From assembly GCA_028289585.1 (NCBI GenBank), contig JANQPI010000026.1:496001-560000 (forward strand): a DNA stretch of 64,000 nt, written 5' to 3'. The translations under genes were made by a program, and so were the position numbers. The stretch's first letter is position 1. Each line of letters opens with the position of its first letter. The DNA comes from Candidatus Zixiibacteriota bacterium. GTDB taxonomy: Bacteria; Zixibacteria; MSB-5A5; GN15; FEB-12. Under the pieces are notes generated by a model. It searched no databases and was not told the DNA's origin. It worked only from the letters and a program-made list of their open reading frames with translations. Shown here one piece after another: positions 9,272 through 19,011 of this stretch.

Positions 9272-12200
9272 TTACAGCTCCCAGGCTCCAACCGGGCACG
9301 GCCCGTAGTTGAAGTAGAAGTTCACCAGGTAGTTCACGTCGGCCAGAGCCGGAGCTCCGCCCGAACCGTCGACGTCACCGAGGTGGAGGAACGGCACCGG
9401 GCCGGCACCACCGCCGAAGAGGTAGTCGACAAGGTAAATGATATCCGCGAGGGTCGCGACATTATCATTGTCCACATCGCCGCGGCCAAAGCCTGCGAAC
9501 TTGTTCCACAGGTTGGCGATATCGGCGTATTCGGCCGGATCTTCGAAGACCGTTGGGGTCGTGCGGAAGAACACAAAGCCGAGTTTCAACGAATCACCCA
9601 CGACGCCCGCGAAGTCATGCTCAGCGAACGTGAAGTGAGCTTCGTGATCCGGAGCACCGGTCGCGATAGCGTCGATCGGCTGACCCAGGTTACCCGCCGG
9701 CAAGGACGAGTAGAAGTAAGCCGAATCCCAGTAGATCGCGTCGGTGAACTGCGCCTGCGCGGCGTCGAGTGAGTACGCGTTCTTCAACGGCGTTTCGCCG
9801 CAGCCGAACGGCAGCTTCACGAAGCCCCAGGCAGCCGGGTTGTTACCGGCGATATCCCACGACCAGGCCGTCGAGATCGACTGGTCAACAACCGCCGTGT
9901 CACCACCGCTTGAGAAATCCCAGAGATCATAGTCCATGATCGTCCAGAGTTTCCAATCCGGAATGGCTGTCGCGTTACGGTTCTTGAACGTCATGACCTC
10001 AAGCGTACCGTCGTGCAGAAGCTCTGCACCGGTCGGGGCATCGACAACACCATAGGTGCTGGTGTTAACCGCAAGACCCATGGTCGAGTCGTTATCGAAC
10101 GGAGCGGAGGCGGAGAGACCGAGGAAATCCCAATCCCACGCCACGCCGTCGAAGAAGTTCTGGACGGAGTCGATGTACGACTTGCAGACAACGTTACCCA
10201 TGATCGGATCGTAGGTCAGACCGTCGGTCGAGAACGAACCGAGCATTACGCCCGTCGTCAGGTTCGGCGTGCACGAACCGTCGCAGAAGTTCGGATCAGC
10301 CTGCATGGAGATCCAGTCACCCTCAGAGCCAACGCCGCCAGCCCACTGCGGGGTGTTCATGGCGACACGGAACTGAGAGACACCGTAGACATACGAGCCC
10401 TGGAAGATCGCCGAGGCATCACCGTCGATATCCCAACCGAAACCACTACCGGCGATACGGCCGGCGTTGTAAACGATCTGGGTGTTCGCGGCGCCCGAGC
10501 CGAAGGCCAGGAACGTCGAATCCAGGAGACAGCCACCAACGAGGGCGAGCGTGAATTCCGGATCCGGGCCGCCACCTTCCATGAAGTACGTCGCGTCATT
10601 GTGACGCATCGTGACAAAGAAGGTGTTCGGTCCACGGTTAACCAGCGGGCCGTTGGCACGGACCGTGATCGGTGACGAGGAGCCCGGAGGCGTGATGATG
10701 TCGCCACCCGGCGGATCGAAGACGTCACCCGCGTAGGTGCCGTTCGAGTTCAGGAAGGCCGGAACCGCCAGAGCGGCCGAACCGCGGTAGCGGTCGTTGT
10801 TGTCGGCATTCCAGGTGTCGCGGTTCGGCAGGAAGTCGTTCGGATTCGTCCGAATGACCTGCAGCGCCTTACCCTTCGACCAGTCGTTCGTCAGCTGCGT
10901 CGCCAGGACGTCACCGTCGCTGAGCGCGCGCTCACGGACAACATCGGTACCCAGGCTGAGCGTAAAGCCGCCCACCGGGGTGTCATCAGCAAAGAGCGAG
11001 CAGACGAGATCGGCACAACCGGTGTTCGCGTACATATCCGGGAAGGAGATGAGCGTGTCGGCCGGCGAACCGAACGGAACGGCCTGCTGGGCACTCAGGC
11101 TGAGGATGTCCAGACGCGGAACGTCGACAGCACCCTTGATAAGATCAAAGAGCACGCCGAAGCCATGGCCGAAGACAAGGTGTTCAACACCACCACCGTC
11201 GAGGCCCAAGGCACCCGAGCGACCGCCACCGGTGAAGGTCGTGCGGCGATGGAAGATGTTGTCGCCATTGTCGGCGTCCATAAACGTCAGGTAGTTGTCA
11301 AAGTCGAAGCCGACCAGAAGATCAGCCGCATTGACTTCACACGTCAGCAGACCCTCAGTCAGGTAACCGGACGAACCGGAACGCTGCGGGACTGCGCCGT
11401 TTGCCCAGACAATCGCGTTGTTGTTCTTGCCAACCGCGAAGACCTGGCCACCGATCGGCGTACCGGTCGGGGAAACGACAAACGTGTAGAATGACAGGTT
11501 GATGACGCGGTTCGCGTCAACAAGCGGGCTCGCCAGGAACGAACCCTGGGTGACCGAGGCCGGAGCGAGATCCGCACCGGTCGCGGCGTTCAGGTTGTAC
11601 GAGATACCATCCGGCAGCAGCTGAAGCGTACCAGCAACGTCGCCAATGACCGAAGTCGCGTAGACGGCGTTACGGCCGAGATCAACCGAAACCGAATTGA
11701 AGTTCTCCGCGCCGAGGCCGGTCAGATTGATCGCCTGGAGGCCGGCCGCAGTGGACAGCTGCCAGTTGATCGCACCGGTCGTCGCGTCGATCGCGTACAC
11801 ATCACCCGGCGCACCGGCCGCGGTGAAGAAGACCTGATTGGCGCCATCGGTGGCACCAGAAATCAGCGAGCCACCAACCATCGTCGGGGTGACCCAGCCC
11901 GGCAGCGCCAGACCGGTGAGAGCGTCGACACCATGTACCTGGCCGTTATCATCGGCGTAGTACAGGCCGGTCGTTCCACCAAGGTCGAGCAGCACCGAGG
12001 TACCGTAACGGATACCGCCATGCTGGGTGTTACCCTGCCAGGCGTTGAAGCCGTTGTTGGACCAGACGACGGTCGCCGGGAGTGTCGTGATATCCCAGGC
12101 CGAGAACGAGGACGTTCCACCGGCGAGGAAGAGATAATCGACACCACCGATTTCAGCAGCCGACGGGGTGCTACGGATGTTCGGTCCGATGGAGAACGGA

Positions 12201-14467
12201 TCATCCGCGCTCGTGACCTCATCGAGGACCGCGCCAGTGACGAGGTCGAGGATCACGTACTTGTTCACGAAGGCGCAGATCACCTGATCTTTGTAGATGA
12301 TCGGGCCGTTGAACGACATCGGCTGAGCCGGATCGACATAAATCCAGTTGGTGGTCAGGTCACACCAGGCATCGCCCAGAGCAACACCGCTCGCACTCGT
12401 ACGCTGGTAGTCGAATCCGCGCGTAGCCCAATTGGCATCCGGTAAACAGGGACGCTCATCAACCGGCACCGAGCAGAAGTCGACGTCGATGATGTGGTTG
12501 CGCGTACCCGTGAACTGGAACCAACTACCAAGTCCGTCACCAACGAACGCACCGCCGTTGATTTCCGGATCAGTATTCAGGCCAAAGTAGAAGAAATTGT
12601 TGTCAGGATCGGCAGACACGTTCCGGTAACCGACGAAGAAATCGCCAAGTACCTGGAAGCCGCCGGGGATTACCACTTCTGTCCACCCGTTAAAGTTGAC
12701 CACGGGCACTGGCTGCGTGTACAGCAGCGCGCCAGGAATGCCACCTGCGTTAGCATAGATGGTGGCCTCGATATCCGGGCTACCGACCGGCGGCGGACCA
12801 AAGAGAGCATCGTCCGCGGCGAGGAAGCGAATCACTTCCGCGCGATTGATCGGTGAACCCAGGACGAGCTGGGCGCCCTCAAGGAGACCACCGAGCAGTG
12901 GGCTGGACACAAAGCCCGAACCCAACGGACCGATGACACCATTCGGGCCATGCAGGACCTGCGTCTGACATTCGGCAAACTCGTCACGGCACAGCTCAGC
13001 CTGAACGTAGAAGCCACCGGCCTGCGGCACGCCGCCACCGATATCAAGCGTCCAGGTGTTGCTGTTCTCGAACAGTTCCCAGTTCGGATCCGGAGCAACA
13101 AAGTTGACCGAGCCACCCGTCTGAGGATTCGAGATGAAGTTATCCGTGGCGATGAACGGCGAACCGTCTGCCGGATTGTCAGAAGTCGTCTTAACGGTTA
13201 CGTGATAGGGGCCAAGCAGCACGAGGTTCGACGAGGTGAAATCGACGATAATCGTCTCAAACGCCACGCCATTCGCGGCCTCGTTACCACCGCCCGGGTA
13301 GATGTTCGCGATGCCGCCCGGAACGGTACGGCTATCGATCGGTCCAGCGCCAACGTCGATGCTACCGGTGCCGTCATCATTCCAGATTTCGACGAGGTAG
13401 CCATTGGTGCTGGTCGGTCCGTACGAGAAGAAATCCGGAAGGCTAAACGCCCAGTCGGAGATCGGACGGACACGAACATTCTGCAGAGTCTCAGGACCCT
13501 CGGCGACGAAGCGCTGACCGAAACCGTTCAGCACCTGACCAGTCGTCCACGCGGGATCCGGAACCTGCCAACCAAATACGAACCCCCCAAACGGGAAGTT
13601 GACGTAGCAATCAGAGAAGTATTCGCAATGGCTGGACCCGATAGCGAAGCCAAGGTCGACGCCAAAGGCCGACGTGTTGTCGAGCCAGATCGGTCCACCA
13701 CCCGAAGCCGGGATGAACAGCGAACTGACGTTCTCATTAGCGAGACCGCCACAGGCGCCACCGGCAGCGGTCGGATTGATCGCGGCGATGATCGTGGTCA
13801 GGTTCAGATCCGAACCTTCCAGCGCTACCGAAACGTGGTAGCCGTCACCACCGGCAATCGTGACCGGAGCGATCGGGAACGTTTGGATGACGCCGGGGAA
13901 CGGGAGCGTATCAAGCGTGATATCGGTCCACGGAATCCGGCGCTCATCGATGAATGCACCCGGTAGGCCACCAGCATCTCCGTAGAAGCGGATCACCAGC
14001 TCAGCATCACCGACAGCATCGGGAAGCTCAGCCTGACGTACCCACACTTCAACAGCATCGACATCGGCAAAGTGATTCGCCTGATTGATCGGAATGAACG
14101 ACGCGCATTCAAAGCCATCGTTGGCAAAGATGCGGAAGCCACTTACCGATCCACAGGTGAACACCCCGTCGACGACACCGTTGTCCTCGAAGAAGCATCC
14201 GACTGTATCGGGGCTTTGGACACCCGGGGATCCGACATACGACGGCAGCTGACCATTGAGGGAGGCATCGAGCGGCGTGTACCGCTGGAATCCCGGCGGA
14301 GTTTCAAAGCCTGCCAACGTCTCGACTTTCGCCGGCGCTGTGCGGACAGGCATTTGGACCGCCTGGTCCCCGGAGATCTTGTTGTCGTCCGGACCCGAGT
14401 ATGCAGTAGTCGCGAAACCCGCAACGAGGGCTACAGCGGTTACTGCGGTTATTAGTCGTCTCAACAT
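9272..14467 (-). CDS. Giant secreted beta-rich protein with propeller region and C-terminal dockerin
   Basis: This 1731-residue protein has a signal peptide (MLRRLITAVTAVALVAGFATTAYS) and an ideal ribosome site (AGGAGG, 14475-14480). The first 620 residues contain several jelly-roll-like domains with recurring phrases (AGGLPGAF, AGGIPGAL; GYHVSV, FFVGYRN). Residues about 670-1100 look like a PQQ-type beta-propeller (DVYAIDATTGAINW, VHGVDALTGLALPG). A further secreted region precedes two C-terminal calcium loops, GDVDNDNVATLADI and GDVDGSGGAPALAD. Codon choice is strongly biased (for example AAC for Asn, TTC for Phe), unlike neighbours, which leaves the opposite strand open for over 300 codons. 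Together with its own strong terminator this suggests an abundant surface or extracellular protein. Enzymatic activity is not evident. Confidence 0.8.
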   Translation of the reverse strand: MLRRLITAVTAVALVAGFATTAYSGPDDNKISGDQAVQMPVRTAPAKVETLAGFETPPGFQRYTPLDASLNGQLPSYVGSPGVQSPDTVGCFFEDNGVVDGVFTCGSVSGFRIFANDGFECASFIPINQANHFADVDAVEVWVRQAELPDAVGDAELVIRFYGDAGGLPGAFIDERRIPWTDITLDTLPFPGVIQTFPIAPVTIAGGDGYHVSVALEGSDLNLTTIIAAINPTAAGGACGGLANENVSSLFIPASGGGPIWLDNTSAFGVDLGFAIGSSHCEYFSDCYVNFPFGGFVFGWQVPDPAWTTGQVLNGFGQRFVAEGPETLQNVRVRPISDWAFSLPDFFSYGPTSTNGYLVEIWNDDGTGSIDVGAGPIDSRTVPGGIANIYPGGGNEAANGVAFETIIVDFTSSNLVLLGPYHVTVKTTSDNPADGSPFIATDNFISNPQTGGSVNFVAPDPNWELFENSNTWTLDIGGGVPQAGGFYVQAELCRDEFAECQTQVLHGPNGVIGPLGSGFVSSPLLGGLLEGAQLVLGSPINRAEVIRFLAADDALFGPPPVGSPDIEATIYANAGGIPGALLYTQPVPVVNFNGWTEVVIPGGFQVLGDFFVGYRNVSADPDNNFFYFGLNTDPEINGGAFVGDGLGSWFQFTGTRNHIIDVDFCSVPVDERPCLPDANWATRGFDYQRTSASGVALGDAWCDLTTNWIYVDPAQPMSFNGPIIYKDQVICAFVNKYVILDLVTGAVLDEVTSADDPFSIGPNIRSTPSAAEIGGVDYLFLAGGTSSFSAWDITTLPATVVWSNNGFNAWQGNTQHGGIRYGTSVLLDLGGTTGLYYADDNGQVHGVDALTGLALPGWVTPTMVGGSLISGATDGANQVFFTAAGAPGDVYAIDATTGAINWQLSTAAGLQAINLTGLGAENFNSVSVDLGRNAVYATSVIGDVAGTLQLLPDGISYNLNAATGADLAPASVTQGSFLASPLVDANRVINLSFYTFVVSPTGTPIGGQVFAVGKNNNAIVWANGAVPQRSGSSGYLTEGLLTCEVNAADLLVGFDFDNYLTFMDADNGDNIFHRRTTFTGGGRSGALGLDGGGVEHLVFGHGFGVLFDLIKGAVDVPRLDILSLSAQQAVPFGSPADTLISFPDMYANTGCADLVCSLFADDTPVGGFTLSLGTDVVRERALSDGDVLATQLTNDWSKGKALQVIRTNPNDFLPNRDTWNADNNDRYRGSAALAVPAFLNSNGTYAGDVFDPPGGDIITPPGSSSPITVRANGPLVNRGPNTFFVTMRHNDATYFMEGGGPDPEFTLALVGGCLLDSTFLAFGSGAANTQIVYNAGRIAGSGFGWDIDGDASAIFQGSYVYGVSQFRVAMNTPQWAGGVGSEGDWISMQADPNFCDGSCTPNLTTGVMLGSFSTDGLTYDPIMGNVVCKSYIDSVQNFFDGVAWDWDFLGLSASAPFDNDSTMGLAVNTSTYGVVDAPTGAELLHDGTLEVMTFKNRNATAIPDWKLWTIMDYDLWDFSSGGDTAVVDQSISTAWSWDIAGNNPAAWGFVKLPFGCGETPLKNAYSLDAAQAQFTDAIYWDSAYFYSSLPAGNLGQPIDAIATGAPDHEAHFTFAEHDFAGVVGDSLKLGFVFFRTTPTVFEDPAEYADIANLWNKFAGFGRGDVDNDNVATLADIIYLVDYLFGGGAGPVPFLHLGDVDGSGGAPALADVNYLVNFYFNYGPCPVGAWEL

Positions 14468-14480
14468 TTATGTCCTCCTA

Positions 14481-15467
14481 ATACAAGGAAAAGCATGAAC
14501 CCGTACGACCAACCGATCCGAGCGACCGTACCTACCGAGGGGTCGGAGGTAATGTGGCCGACAGATGCGCCCACGCTCTTGTCTAGGGAATTTGTGGGTC
14601 GGGTTGATAATACTAAGTTCACCGTTATTCCTCTTATGGAGTGAGGATCAGTCATGCTACCACCCTGATGGTGCACAACGTGCTCCGAAATGTCGTGTAG
14701 TCTGTTTCGCTTCTTGATTTTGCTCGTTTCGACGATTCGCGGTCGTCTGCACCTCCTCACAAATTCAGCACCTAACGAAAGGGCCGTGAACTTGTCTTAC
14801 GGTGTCGTACTAGACTCGCGGTGAGAAGACGTCCGGAACAAACTCGACGTAGGAACGAAGTAACGGTGACAATCTGAACGTGAACGTAGTGACCGCTTTG
14901 TCCGAGCGCGGTACGTTGCGATACAAGATCGACAACAACTACCGGACAGACATCTGTCGGTCCCGAATGATTGTCAGGTCGTTAGCGGTTTGATTCCGTT
15001 GCTACTTGAGACAGGGCAGTTAGACGTACGGTTTGGCTCTCGGGTCCAACTACTCTTTGCACACGCTGGACGCAAGGTACGGTCAATCGTCGATATGTCA
15101 ATCCTAAATCGGAAATATTTTCCATGACGCCACAGAGGATAAGATGTTTCCAGATCAGCGCTTATCTACGCTCAGTCGAACCGTCGCGAGAAGCTGGTTC
15201 GTCTGTGGAAACCGTCCCCGATCCCACCCCCTTTCTCGTCGGTTGGGGAACGACACCGGAATCGTCAACCGGCGTCCTCATCGTGCGTCGTTGTTCATCA
15301 GGAACGTGGGAGCACGGCGCCAGTTAACCAACTCTCGTGGGAGCATTGATCGAGCCGACCAAGTGGTCTGGTCAGGCGATCGGGAGCACGACTGCTGTTC
15401 TTTCCGGCAGTCGGGAGCACGGCCATTTCTGCTTGTACCGTCGGTCGGAGCACGGAATACTCAGGCT
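14481..15467. other. Gene-free region of almost 1 kb
   Basis: No convincing gene is seen on either strand. Open frames here are short or lack a ribosome site and a protein-like composition. The left part must hold the promoter and leader of the giant minus-strand gene. A small hairpin with one bulge lies at 14942-14960 (CCGGACAGA / TCTGTCGG). The right end holds the GGAGCA repeats described separately. No tRNA-like cloverleaf was found. Confidence 0.6.
15309..15452 (+). repeat. Five phased GGAGCA direct repeats before the thermonuclease gene
   Basis: GGAGCA starts at 15309, 15340, 15383, 15414 and 15447; four copies continue as GGAGCACG and the second as GGAGCATT. The first four are preceded by G, and the last by C. 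The spacings of 31, 43, 31 and 33 bases lie near 3, 4, 3 and 3 turns of B-DNA. The spacings are not multiples of three, so this is not a protein repeat. The last copy is 15 bases from the thermonuclease ATG. Confidence 0.7.
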
Positions 15468-16130
15468 ATGACTCGTCCTTCCACGATCCGCCGTCTCCTG
15501 GCGGCGGTAGCGGTCATCCTGATTGTGGTCATCTATATAGTAGTTGTTCGCGCTCCGGACCCGCTCCCCGATCCACCCTTACCCTCCGACCGATTTCGTG
15601 TGGTTTCGATTTTGGATGGCGACAGCGCGGAACTACGCGGCGGTGATCAGCTTCGTCTGCTCGGCATCGATACTCCGGAAGCCGGCCAACCCTTCGCCGA
15701 TGACGCGTCATCTCTCTTTCGCAGGCTAACAGCTGATCGCCCGTTGCGACTGACCTACAATCAGAACCGTCGTGACCGTTACGGTCGACTGCTCGCATTC
15801 GCGTATGTCGACGATACCCTGATGGTCAACCGGGTGTTGGTCGATTCCGGGCTGGCCTGGTTGTATCTGCATCATGATCAAGACAACACGACCAGTGAGT
15901 TTCAGCAGTTGCTCGCCGCGCAGCAACACGCGATCGATCACCGGGTCGGAGTCTGGGCGGAGGATCATCCCCCGGAGTCGCACTACCTGTCATCGCCAAA
16001 CTCATTTCGTTTCCATCGCCCGAAGTGCCGTCATCTCGACGGGTTAGCGATCGATCGTTGGGATCAGTTTCCGACACGCTCGGCGGCGATGCGGACGGGG
16101 TTGTCACCGTGTCGGACCTGCCAACCGTAG
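15468..16130 (+). CDS. Membrane-anchored staphylococcal-nuclease-like thermonuclease
   Basis: The start at 15468 gives 220 residues beginning with a membrane anchor (LLAAVAVILIVVIYIVVV). The frame is open to 15144, but the upstream part is Arg-rich, not protein-like and contains the DNA repeats. The nuclease domain shows the catalytic set of the SNase family: ILDGDS (calcium Asp), RLLGIDTPE (Arg, Asp, Glu) and DRYGR (second Arg). A C-terminal module FHRPKCRHL...SPCRTC is the small Cys-rich extension often found after bacterial SNase domains. It should cleave DNA and RNA outside the cytoplasm with calcium. The gene stands alone, with the empty kilobase before it. Confidence 0.88.
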   Translation: MTRPSTIRRLLAAVAVILIVVIYIVVVRAPDPLPDPPLPSDRFRVVSILDGDSAELRGGDQLRLLGIDTPEAGQPFADDASSLFRRLTADRPLRLTYNQNRRDRYGRLLAFAYVDDTLMVNRVLVDSGLAWLYLHHDQDNTTSEFQQLLAAQQHAIDHRVGVWAEDHPPESHYLSSPNSFRFHRPKCRHLDGLAIDRWDQFPTRSAAMRTGLSPCRTCQP

Positions 16131-16250: not shown

Positions 16251-16266
16251 TGGTGCAGTATTTGCA
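16251..16266 (+). promoter_or_regulatory. Sigma-54-type -24/-12 promoter of the PEP-CTERM gene
   Basis: TGGTGCAGTATTTGCA has the invariant GG (16252-16253) and GC (16264-16265) exactly 10 bases apart, within the frame TGGnnC-N5-TTGCA. The start codon is 68 bases downstream. An imperfect inverted repeat, CATCAAATC (16231-16239) and GATTTGGTG (16247-16255), overlaps the -24 element and could be an operator. In other bacteria PEP-CTERM genes are controlled by sigma-54 with the PrsR activator, which supports the call. Confidence 0.6.
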
Positions 16267-17640: not shown

Positions 17641-19011
17641 ATGCCGAATATTCTGGTAGTAGATGACAAGGATTCGATGCGGGGGATGCTCAGTGAAACC
17701 CTCGCCGCGGCCGGCCATCGAGTCGACGCCGCCCATTCCGGCAAGCACGCCATCGATCTTCTTCATAACCGCGACTACGATCTCGTTGTCACCGATCTCA
17801 AGATGCCCGAGGTCACCGGCATGGAAGTGCTGACCGAGGCGAAAGAGATCGACACCGATACGTCGGTCATCCTCATGACAGCCTACGGGACGATCGAGGA
17901 TGCGGTCGAGGCGATGCGGCGTGGGGCGTTTGATTTCATCACCAAACCGTTCGACACGGATCACCTTTGTGTCCTGGTCGATCGTGCGCTCGAGAACCGT
18001 CGGCTCGTTCAGGAGAACTCGCTACTTCGCGAGGAGCTCTTCGGCAAGAACGCGACCGATACGATCATCGGCACGAGCCGGGTCATGAAAGATCTCGTTG
18101 CCCTTGTTGAGAAAGTCTCGCAGTCGGACGCCTCGGTGCTGCTTCAGGGGGAGTCCGGTACCGGTAAGGAACTGATCGCCCGCGCCATTCACTCGCTGTC
18201 AGCGCGTAACGACCGACCGTTTATTGCCATCAACTGTGCCGCCATCCCCGGTGAACTGCTCGAAAACGAACTGTTCGGTTCCGAAAAGGGTGCGTTCACC
18301 GGTGCTCATGCGCGCAAGATTGGTAAGTTTGAAATCGCCCATACCGGGACGATCTTTCTCGACGAAGTCGGCGACATGCCGATCGCGCTGCAGGCGAAAC
18401 TGCTTCGTGTTCTGCAGGAGCGGAACTTCGAACGCCTTGGTGGAACGAAGTCAGTAGAAGTTGATGTACGTGTGATCGCGGCGTCGAACATGAATCTCCA
18501 GGAACTGATTTCGCAGAAGACGTTCCGCGAGGATCTCTTCTATCGCCTGTCGGTCTTTCCGCTCCAGATTCCGCCGTTGCGGGAGCGACCGGATGATGTC
18601 GAACCGCTCGCGGACTATTTTATCCAGAAGTACTGCCGCGAAATGAAGAAGCCGGCAAAGTCGCTCTCCAATGACGCCAAGGGTATTTTGCTTAAGTATC
18701 ACTGGCCGGGGAACATTCGCGAACTCGAGAACACCATTGAGCGCGCGATCATTTTGGCTGAGGGAAAGAAGATCACGCCCGAGCACCTGGCGATTCGTAT
18801 CCAGCGTTCGTCAGAGGTTCAGTTGCGCGACGGTGCCGGACTCAAGGAGATCGGCGCTCATGCTCAGGCGGCGGCTGAGCGCGGGACGATCATCCGGGTG
18901 CTTCGTGAGGTTCGCGGCAACAAGCGGAAAGCGGCGAAGATTCTGCAGATCGATTACACGACACTGTTCGATAAGCTGAAGAAGTACGACATCGGCACCG
19001 ACGACATCTAG
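17641..19011 (+). CDS. NtrC-family sigma-54-dependent response regulator
   Basis: The 456-residue protein has a receiver domain (phosphoacceptor Asp52, Lys102), an AAA+ domain with Walker A GESGTGKE (170-177), GAFTGA (217-222) and a Walker B FLDEVGDM, and a C-terminal Fis-type helix-turn-helix (NKRKAAKILQIDYTTLFDKL). GAFTGA is the loop that contacts sigma-54, so the protein is a competent sigma-54 activator. Phosphorylation should drive ATP-dependent opening of -24/-12 promoters. No histidine kinase is adjacent. The only sigma-54-like promoter I see nearby is that of the PEP-CTERM gene 1.4 kb upstream, and PrsR-type regulation is known for such genes; the link is inference. Confidence 0.93.
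   Translation: MPNILVVDDKDSMRGMLSETLAAAGHRVDAAHSGKHAIDLLHNRDYDLVVTDLKMPEVTGMEVLTEAKEIDTDTSVILMTAYGTIEDAVEAMRRGAFDFITKPFDTDHLCVLVDRALENRRLVQENSLLREELFGKNATDTIIGTSRVMKDLVALVEKVSQSDASVLLQGESGTGKELIARAIHSLSARNDRPFIAINCAAIPGELLENELFGSEKGAFTGAHARKIGKFEIAHTGTIFLDEVGDMPIALQAKLLRVLQERNFERLGGTKSVEVDVRVIAASNMNLQELISQKTFREDLFYRLSVFPLQIPPLRERPDDVEPLADYFIQKYCREMKKPAKSLSNDAKGILLKYHWPGNIRELENTIERAIILAEGKKITPEHLAIRIQRSSEVQLRDGAGLKEIGAHAQAAAERGTIIRVLREVRGNKRKAAKILQIDYTTLFDKLKKYDIGTDDI

Follow-up and report, generated by a model that had tools for sequence, protein, structure and literature searches.

A helically phased array of asymmetric 10-bp sites, probably bound by a protein, beside a thermonuclease-like gene in one branch of the GN15 clade

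Several described DNA-binding systems use short asymmetric sites. The MalT box (GGGGAKGAGG) is the site of MalT, a STAND-class activator; the heptamer arrays of response regulators (NarL, Spo0A, and PhoB) are composed of asymmetric units of 7–10 bp that vary in number, orientation, and spacing; and DnaA-box clusters consist of asymmetric 9-mers in both orientations, bound by a cooperative ATPase, and may lie in genes. Cooperative binding as a multimer has been described for MalT (PMC4381067). BldC forms a cooperative head-to-tail multimer on one DNA face over asymmetric direct repeats, the number of which varies (PMC5859096), and cluster A mycobacteriophages carry stoperators, many asymmetric monomer sites located away from promoters (PMC9283540).

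We analysed a 64-kb stretch of DNA (the window) from a genome of the GN15 clade (3.15 Mb, 99.6% complete), in which a first-pass annotation had noticed five GGAGCA copies and interpreted them as a phased array of sites for a protein. All five claimed starts (15309, 15340, 15383, 15414, and 15447, + strand) were confirmed, and the clustering exceeds chance, with GGAGCA being the sole 6-mer in the window that has five non-overlapping copies in a span of 144 bases; any equally clustered 6-mer arose in one of 60 first-order Markov sequences of window length. Across the whole window, GGAGCA is not enriched (38 found vs 33 expected, both strands). The hexamer proved to be the core of a longer unit: in the consensus of 105 sites, all picked for the GGAGCAY core, the flanks sharpen to the decamer YGGGAGCAYG and then end abruptly, and four of the five window copies read GGGAGCAY. 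The two looser copies suggested as an extension, at 15209 and 15247, lie outside the array because their motif scores (−12.3 and −3.4 bits) are far below those of the true members (10.5–17.1 bits). The sites and flanking features are listed in Table 1. A lone extra site, TCGGAGCACG, is located at 14679–14688 (−), 630 bp from the array and within the leader of the divergent gene.

Table 1. Array sites and flanking features in the window (motif scores from the model of 105 sites)
Feature	Position	Strand	Details
Site 1	15307..15316	+	TGGGAGCACG; 16.2 bits
Site 2	15338..15347	+	TGGGAGCATT; 31 bp from site 1; 12.6 bits
Site 3	15381..15390	+	CGGGAGCACG; 43 bp from site 2; 17.1 bits
Site 4	15412..15421	+	CGGGAGCACG; 31 bp from site 3; 17.1 bits
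Site 5	15445..15454	+	TCGGAGCACG; 33 bp from site 4; 13.3 bits
Thermonuclease-like gene nuc	15468..16130	+	Pfam SNase PF00565, E 4.5e-18; starts 14 bp past site 5
Divergent secreted protein gene	9272..14467	−	From ORF list; dockerin-like C-terminus pattern; Pfam PQQ_2; other flank of the array
Likely promoter of divergent gene	15074..15101	−	TTGACA, 16 bp, TACCTT; ~205 bp from site 1

Compared with the described systems, the array resembles MalT boxes, which form arrays at target promoters, in its asymmetric, G-rich 10-bp sites set in arrays, and the MalT box agrees with the unit at 7 of 10 positions; however, three base positions differ, the consensus being YGGGAGCAYG and not GGGGAKGAGG, one of the main arrays is intragenic (see below), and no MalT-like protein is tied to the arrays. 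Asymmetric repeats in variable number are shared with BldC operators, and one-face cooperative occupancy may be a further likeness, whereas BldC recognizes 9-bp AATT direct repeats, head to tail in one orientation, and the present sites have a GC-rich core, lie one to five helical turns apart, and occur in both orientations. The arrays are also like those of NarL, Spo0A, and PhoB in their short asymmetric units of varied number, orientation, and spacing, but no regulator of this type was identified, and none of the three is known to recognize this sequence. Stoperators belong to a phage genome and differ in being single 13-mers, the orientation of which is linked to that of transcription. DnaA-box clusters share the asymmetric sites, both orientations, and a possible location in genes, but have the consensus TTATCCACA in place of YGGGAGCAYG, and one DnaA-domain match was found in every genome tested, with or without an array. 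By these features, the array belongs neither with BldC operators nor with DnaA boxes. A literature search for the heptamer yielded no relevant paper among those listed.

All sites of the window array are on the + strand, whereas the arrays of relatives hold both orientations; distances between same-strand neighbours peak at 11–13, 19–23, and 30–33 bp. The near-integral helical spacing noticed in the window (31, 43, 31, and 33 bp, with cosines of 0.96, 0.83, 0.96, and 0.62) is borne out beyond it: the 58 adjacent pairs in the non-coding arrays excluding the window have a mean cosine of 0.49 at 10.5 bp. Some of these pairs are taken from orthologous places, which limits their independence (though their spacings differ), and three derive from a cluster inside yidD of one genome (G001) that was not counted as an array place. 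None of 2000 trials, with the distances jittered by up to 5 bp and the offset refitted, reached 0.49. A period scan had its optimum at 10.5 bp, with a best strand offset of 4 bp; phasing was not a criterion in choosing the arrays. Because one strand offset applies, sites in opposite orientation share one face, and the 10.5-bp phasing with this single offset therefore argues for binding to duplex DNA.

In a first pair search of the own genome, matches beyond the window array and a second locus (place B) mostly resembled ordinary coding sequence; later searches were therefore made with GGGAGCAY pairs in all relative orientations, with the reversed pattern as control, in the own genome and 60 relatives. 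The pair searches over these 61 genomes found 25, 18, 23, and 33 matches; with the reversed control, the numbers were 3, 0, 3, and 3. The motif is conserved at three orthologous places, designated A, B, and C, and GGGAGCA is confined to a few clusters without being over-represented genome-wide, so that neither the lack of conservation nor the scattered occurrence that would have counted against the original interpretation was found. Sites were counted by pattern searches and in sampled stretches, where the background density is 0.13–0.18 sites per kb; at least three sites occurred in one of 1200 background segments of 400 nt, and the stretches sampled from the genome of that segment take in the sbcC array. 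Scans for triple sites in collections of genomes and viruses returned mainly unrelated repeats. Pairs of GGGAGCAYCTNNYGGGAGCAT in several array-negative genomes resemble coding sequence for GSI-x-REH and were not counted as an array place.

Place A lies within sbcC upstream of nuc or, in the two genomes without sbcC (the window genome and one relative), directly before nuc; nuc has orthologues in 54 of the 61 genomes and adjoins array A across the family. In ten array-bearing genera, the sites are in an sbcC/Rad50-like gene (about 800 aa) immediately 5′ of nuc, and in most relatives the array is ~600 bp inside sbcC, distant from obvious promoters. The annotated position just before the thermonuclease start thus holds for the window, but the array has no specific link to the nuc promoter, because most relatives carry it in sbcC, ~1.8 kb upstream of nuc. 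Complete sbcC sets have four sites with spacings of 43, 53, and 26, unchanged although the protein diverges, and the sites encode REH, GA, REH, and CS, i.e., in differing frames and strands. Shuffling of synonymous codons per gene gave 10.6 expected against 50 observed sites for eleven array-positive sbcC genes, with three genomes (G025, having two sites at other positions, G013, and G023) being individually weak, and 0.7 expected against 1 observed for the array-negative genes, the latter being the total among the sbcC genes of fourteen genomes. The sites in sbcC are under selection at the DNA level. Since the array-positive genes also have higher expected counts (about 1 per gene), the SbcC protein sequence has followed the sites. 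No sbcC was found in the window genome, where a search gave one weak N-terminal ATPase match (E 5.8e-4), and no sbcC remnants were detectable around the window array. The relative with the array before nuc (G028) has spacings of 43 and 25 that are also found in sbcC, with no sbcC found in the region. In the SbcC tree, one change separates the array-positives in 85% of bootstrap trees; the tree of the shorter nuc gene needs five changes, against 11.2 with shuffled labels, and may be compatible with one origin of the arrays. The matching rows of the relatives were first taken for rRNA or structured RNA, a reading rejected when they proved to be the coding sbcC gene.

Place B falls at, or shortly after, the 3′ end of a sigma54-type response-regulator gene downstream of a histidine kinase gene, and sits 190–400 bp before a gene for a secreted coiled-coil protein. 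Place C precedes an alpha/beta-hydrolase gene by 50–450 bp and lies immediately upstream of sigma70-like promoters (judged by eye), with a divergent dockerin-type gene opposite in several genomes. Absent sites can be scored at B and C because both loci were located by protein search in 49 of the 61 genomes; in incomplete genomes, a missing locus was not scored as absence of the array. Uncorrected for phylogeny, the arrays at B and C co-occur (7 both, 0 B only, 1 C only, and 13 neither), as do those at A and C (10, 0, 1, and 12, in the same order) and at A and B (6, 1, 1, and 11). One genome (G027) lacks an array at B but carries them at A and C, and G001 is negative at all three places. At B or C, most array-positive genomes have GGGAGCA as their most frequent repeated 7-mer, and no shared GC-rich repeat of this kind was found at B and C of the array-negative genomes. 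The arrays are thus a phased, selected DNA element that genomes carry, or lack, jointly at three orthologous places.

Other elements were observed around B and C. The window genome has a second, four-site array near B (G000:C21:316817-316875; L106 4818-4875), at the 5′ end of a gene for a predicted outer-membrane-like protein. A palindrome near TGTACCN4GGTACA, 135–240 bp upstream of the coiled-coil gene (L106, L103, and L398-L427), is present in almost all tested genomes, with or without arrays and including another family; it is likely the operator of another regulator, perhaps that of the adjacent response-regulator gene. At C, the dockerin-type gene (L144, L146, and L101) has a strong TTGACA/TATATT promoter and a conserved leader of a few hundred nucleotides, CAGGTTACTTACAAGCGC...CTACTGCTAAA.

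Conservation, non-scattered distribution, and phasing all support the original reading of the window copies as a phased array of sites for a protein. Because rows of identical sites are kept at three chromosomal places, once inside a gene, protein binding is predicted, and we consider it probable that the five asymmetric 10-bp sites in the window are a cis-acting array bound cooperatively by a protein of one GN15 branch. This sequence-specific protein would occupy the sites cooperatively along one duplex face, would serve array B (coiled-coil gene) and array C (alpha/beta-hydrolase gene) as well, and may have been gained, or have changed its specificity, once in the clade. It is most likely a transcription regulator, since B and C keep their places before gene starts, C upstream of sigma70-like promoters; this assignment is less certain for A, whose intragenic position in sbcC of most relatives is odd for a promoter-proximal regulator. 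In the window, the protein would putatively control the transcription of nuc, of the divergent dockerin gene, or of both; either gene could be the target because the array is also near the likely promoter of the latter. The response regulator at B was considered as the discriminating factor (an NtrC-type enhancer arrangement) and rejected, its recognition helix (RRRLYSRMK) being found in array-positive and array-negative genomes. Counts of LuxR-type HTH domains did not separate array-positive from array-negative genomes, both of which have them.

The arrays might instead be sites of chromosome maintenance or architecture, comparable to DnaA-box clusters or to sites for protein loading, and not serve transcription of the neighbours. 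Array A is tolerated in coding sequence and shifts between coding and intergenic DNA, B lies in some genomes at the regulator gene's end and in others in the spacer, each genome has few clusters, and the neighbour genes at A, B, and C have no evident common function, all of which would suit such a role. We nevertheless judge it unlikely: in the one-contig genome G027, dnaA maps to 2.894 Mb, the B gene (no array) to 2.938 Mb, A to 1.731 Mb, and C to 1.270 Mb, so the arrays are not gathered at the origin or terminus (GC skew was too weak to mark either), and the arrays at B and C stay in a fixed position ahead of a gene start, with a sigma70-like promoter just downstream at C. Taken more widely, a clade-specific DNA-binding system that does not initiate transcription, e.g., one organizing the chromosome or blocking elongation in sbcC, is possible, if doubtful; if it exists, strong selection would have reshaped SbcC and kept the array after loss of the surrounding gene.

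A function of the sites in transcripts, either as hairpins or as GGA motifs recognized by a protein, is very improbable. The GGA core, the hairpins possible in some window spacers, and the inverted pairs within some arrays would fit it, but both strands carry sites in sbcC as well as at B and C, a 10.5-bp phase with one strand offset belongs to double-stranded DNA, the array folds with unremarkable energy (z of 0.19 for the + strand and −1.17 for the − strand), and no Rfam family matches. Repeated hairpins between the window copies are not kept in relatives. A genome-wide signal (recombination hotspot, DNA uptake sequence, or Chi) could likewise be short, asymmetric, and GC-rich and be present in a DNA-repair gene, but GGGAGCA ranks 51st among 105 letter permutations in 304 kb of the own genome and forms few clusters only, which leaves this explanation hardly credible. 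The same low credence is given to chance clustering or plain amino-acid conservation in SbcC: REH and GA are recurrent in coiled coils with such a composition, and the array-positive proteins do lift the expected count, but the codon shuffling, the differing reading frames and strands, the helical phasing, and the non-coding arrays at B, at C, and before nuc in the two sbcC-less genomes all speak against it.

With the phased sites read as targets of a DNA-binding protein, the motif, phase, strand offset, three target places, and carrier genomes together make up a sequence-derived cis-regulatory code with a putative regulatory role; no described regulatory motif was found for the uncultured GN15 clade. 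In sbcC, the array is a clear case of a putative DNA-binding array written over a coding gene, with the protein forced to follow, and the all-or-none distribution should make the predicted binding protein findable by phylogenetic profiling.

The surroundings of the window array have further conserved features. The promoter of the divergent dockerin gene is kept in 15 genomes as CTTGACAA...TA..TT, and the leader of roughly 600 nt that it precedes (14468–15105, −) is conserved blockwise in the 15 genomes, with the promoter block CTTGACAA followed by GAGCGTGTG, GAGAGCCA, TTCCCTAGACA, and AAGGAGG near the gene; the equivalent position was also seen in L073, L074, and L076. The leader has no Rfam match and, in RNAalifold, weak local consensus structure only; it is possibly a regulatory leader RNA. 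On the other side of nuc, TGGTGCAGTATTTGCA (16251–16266) closely matches a sigma54 −24/−12 promoter, 70 bp before a gene for a PEP-CTERM protein (16334), and a sigma54-type response-regulator gene is located at 17641.
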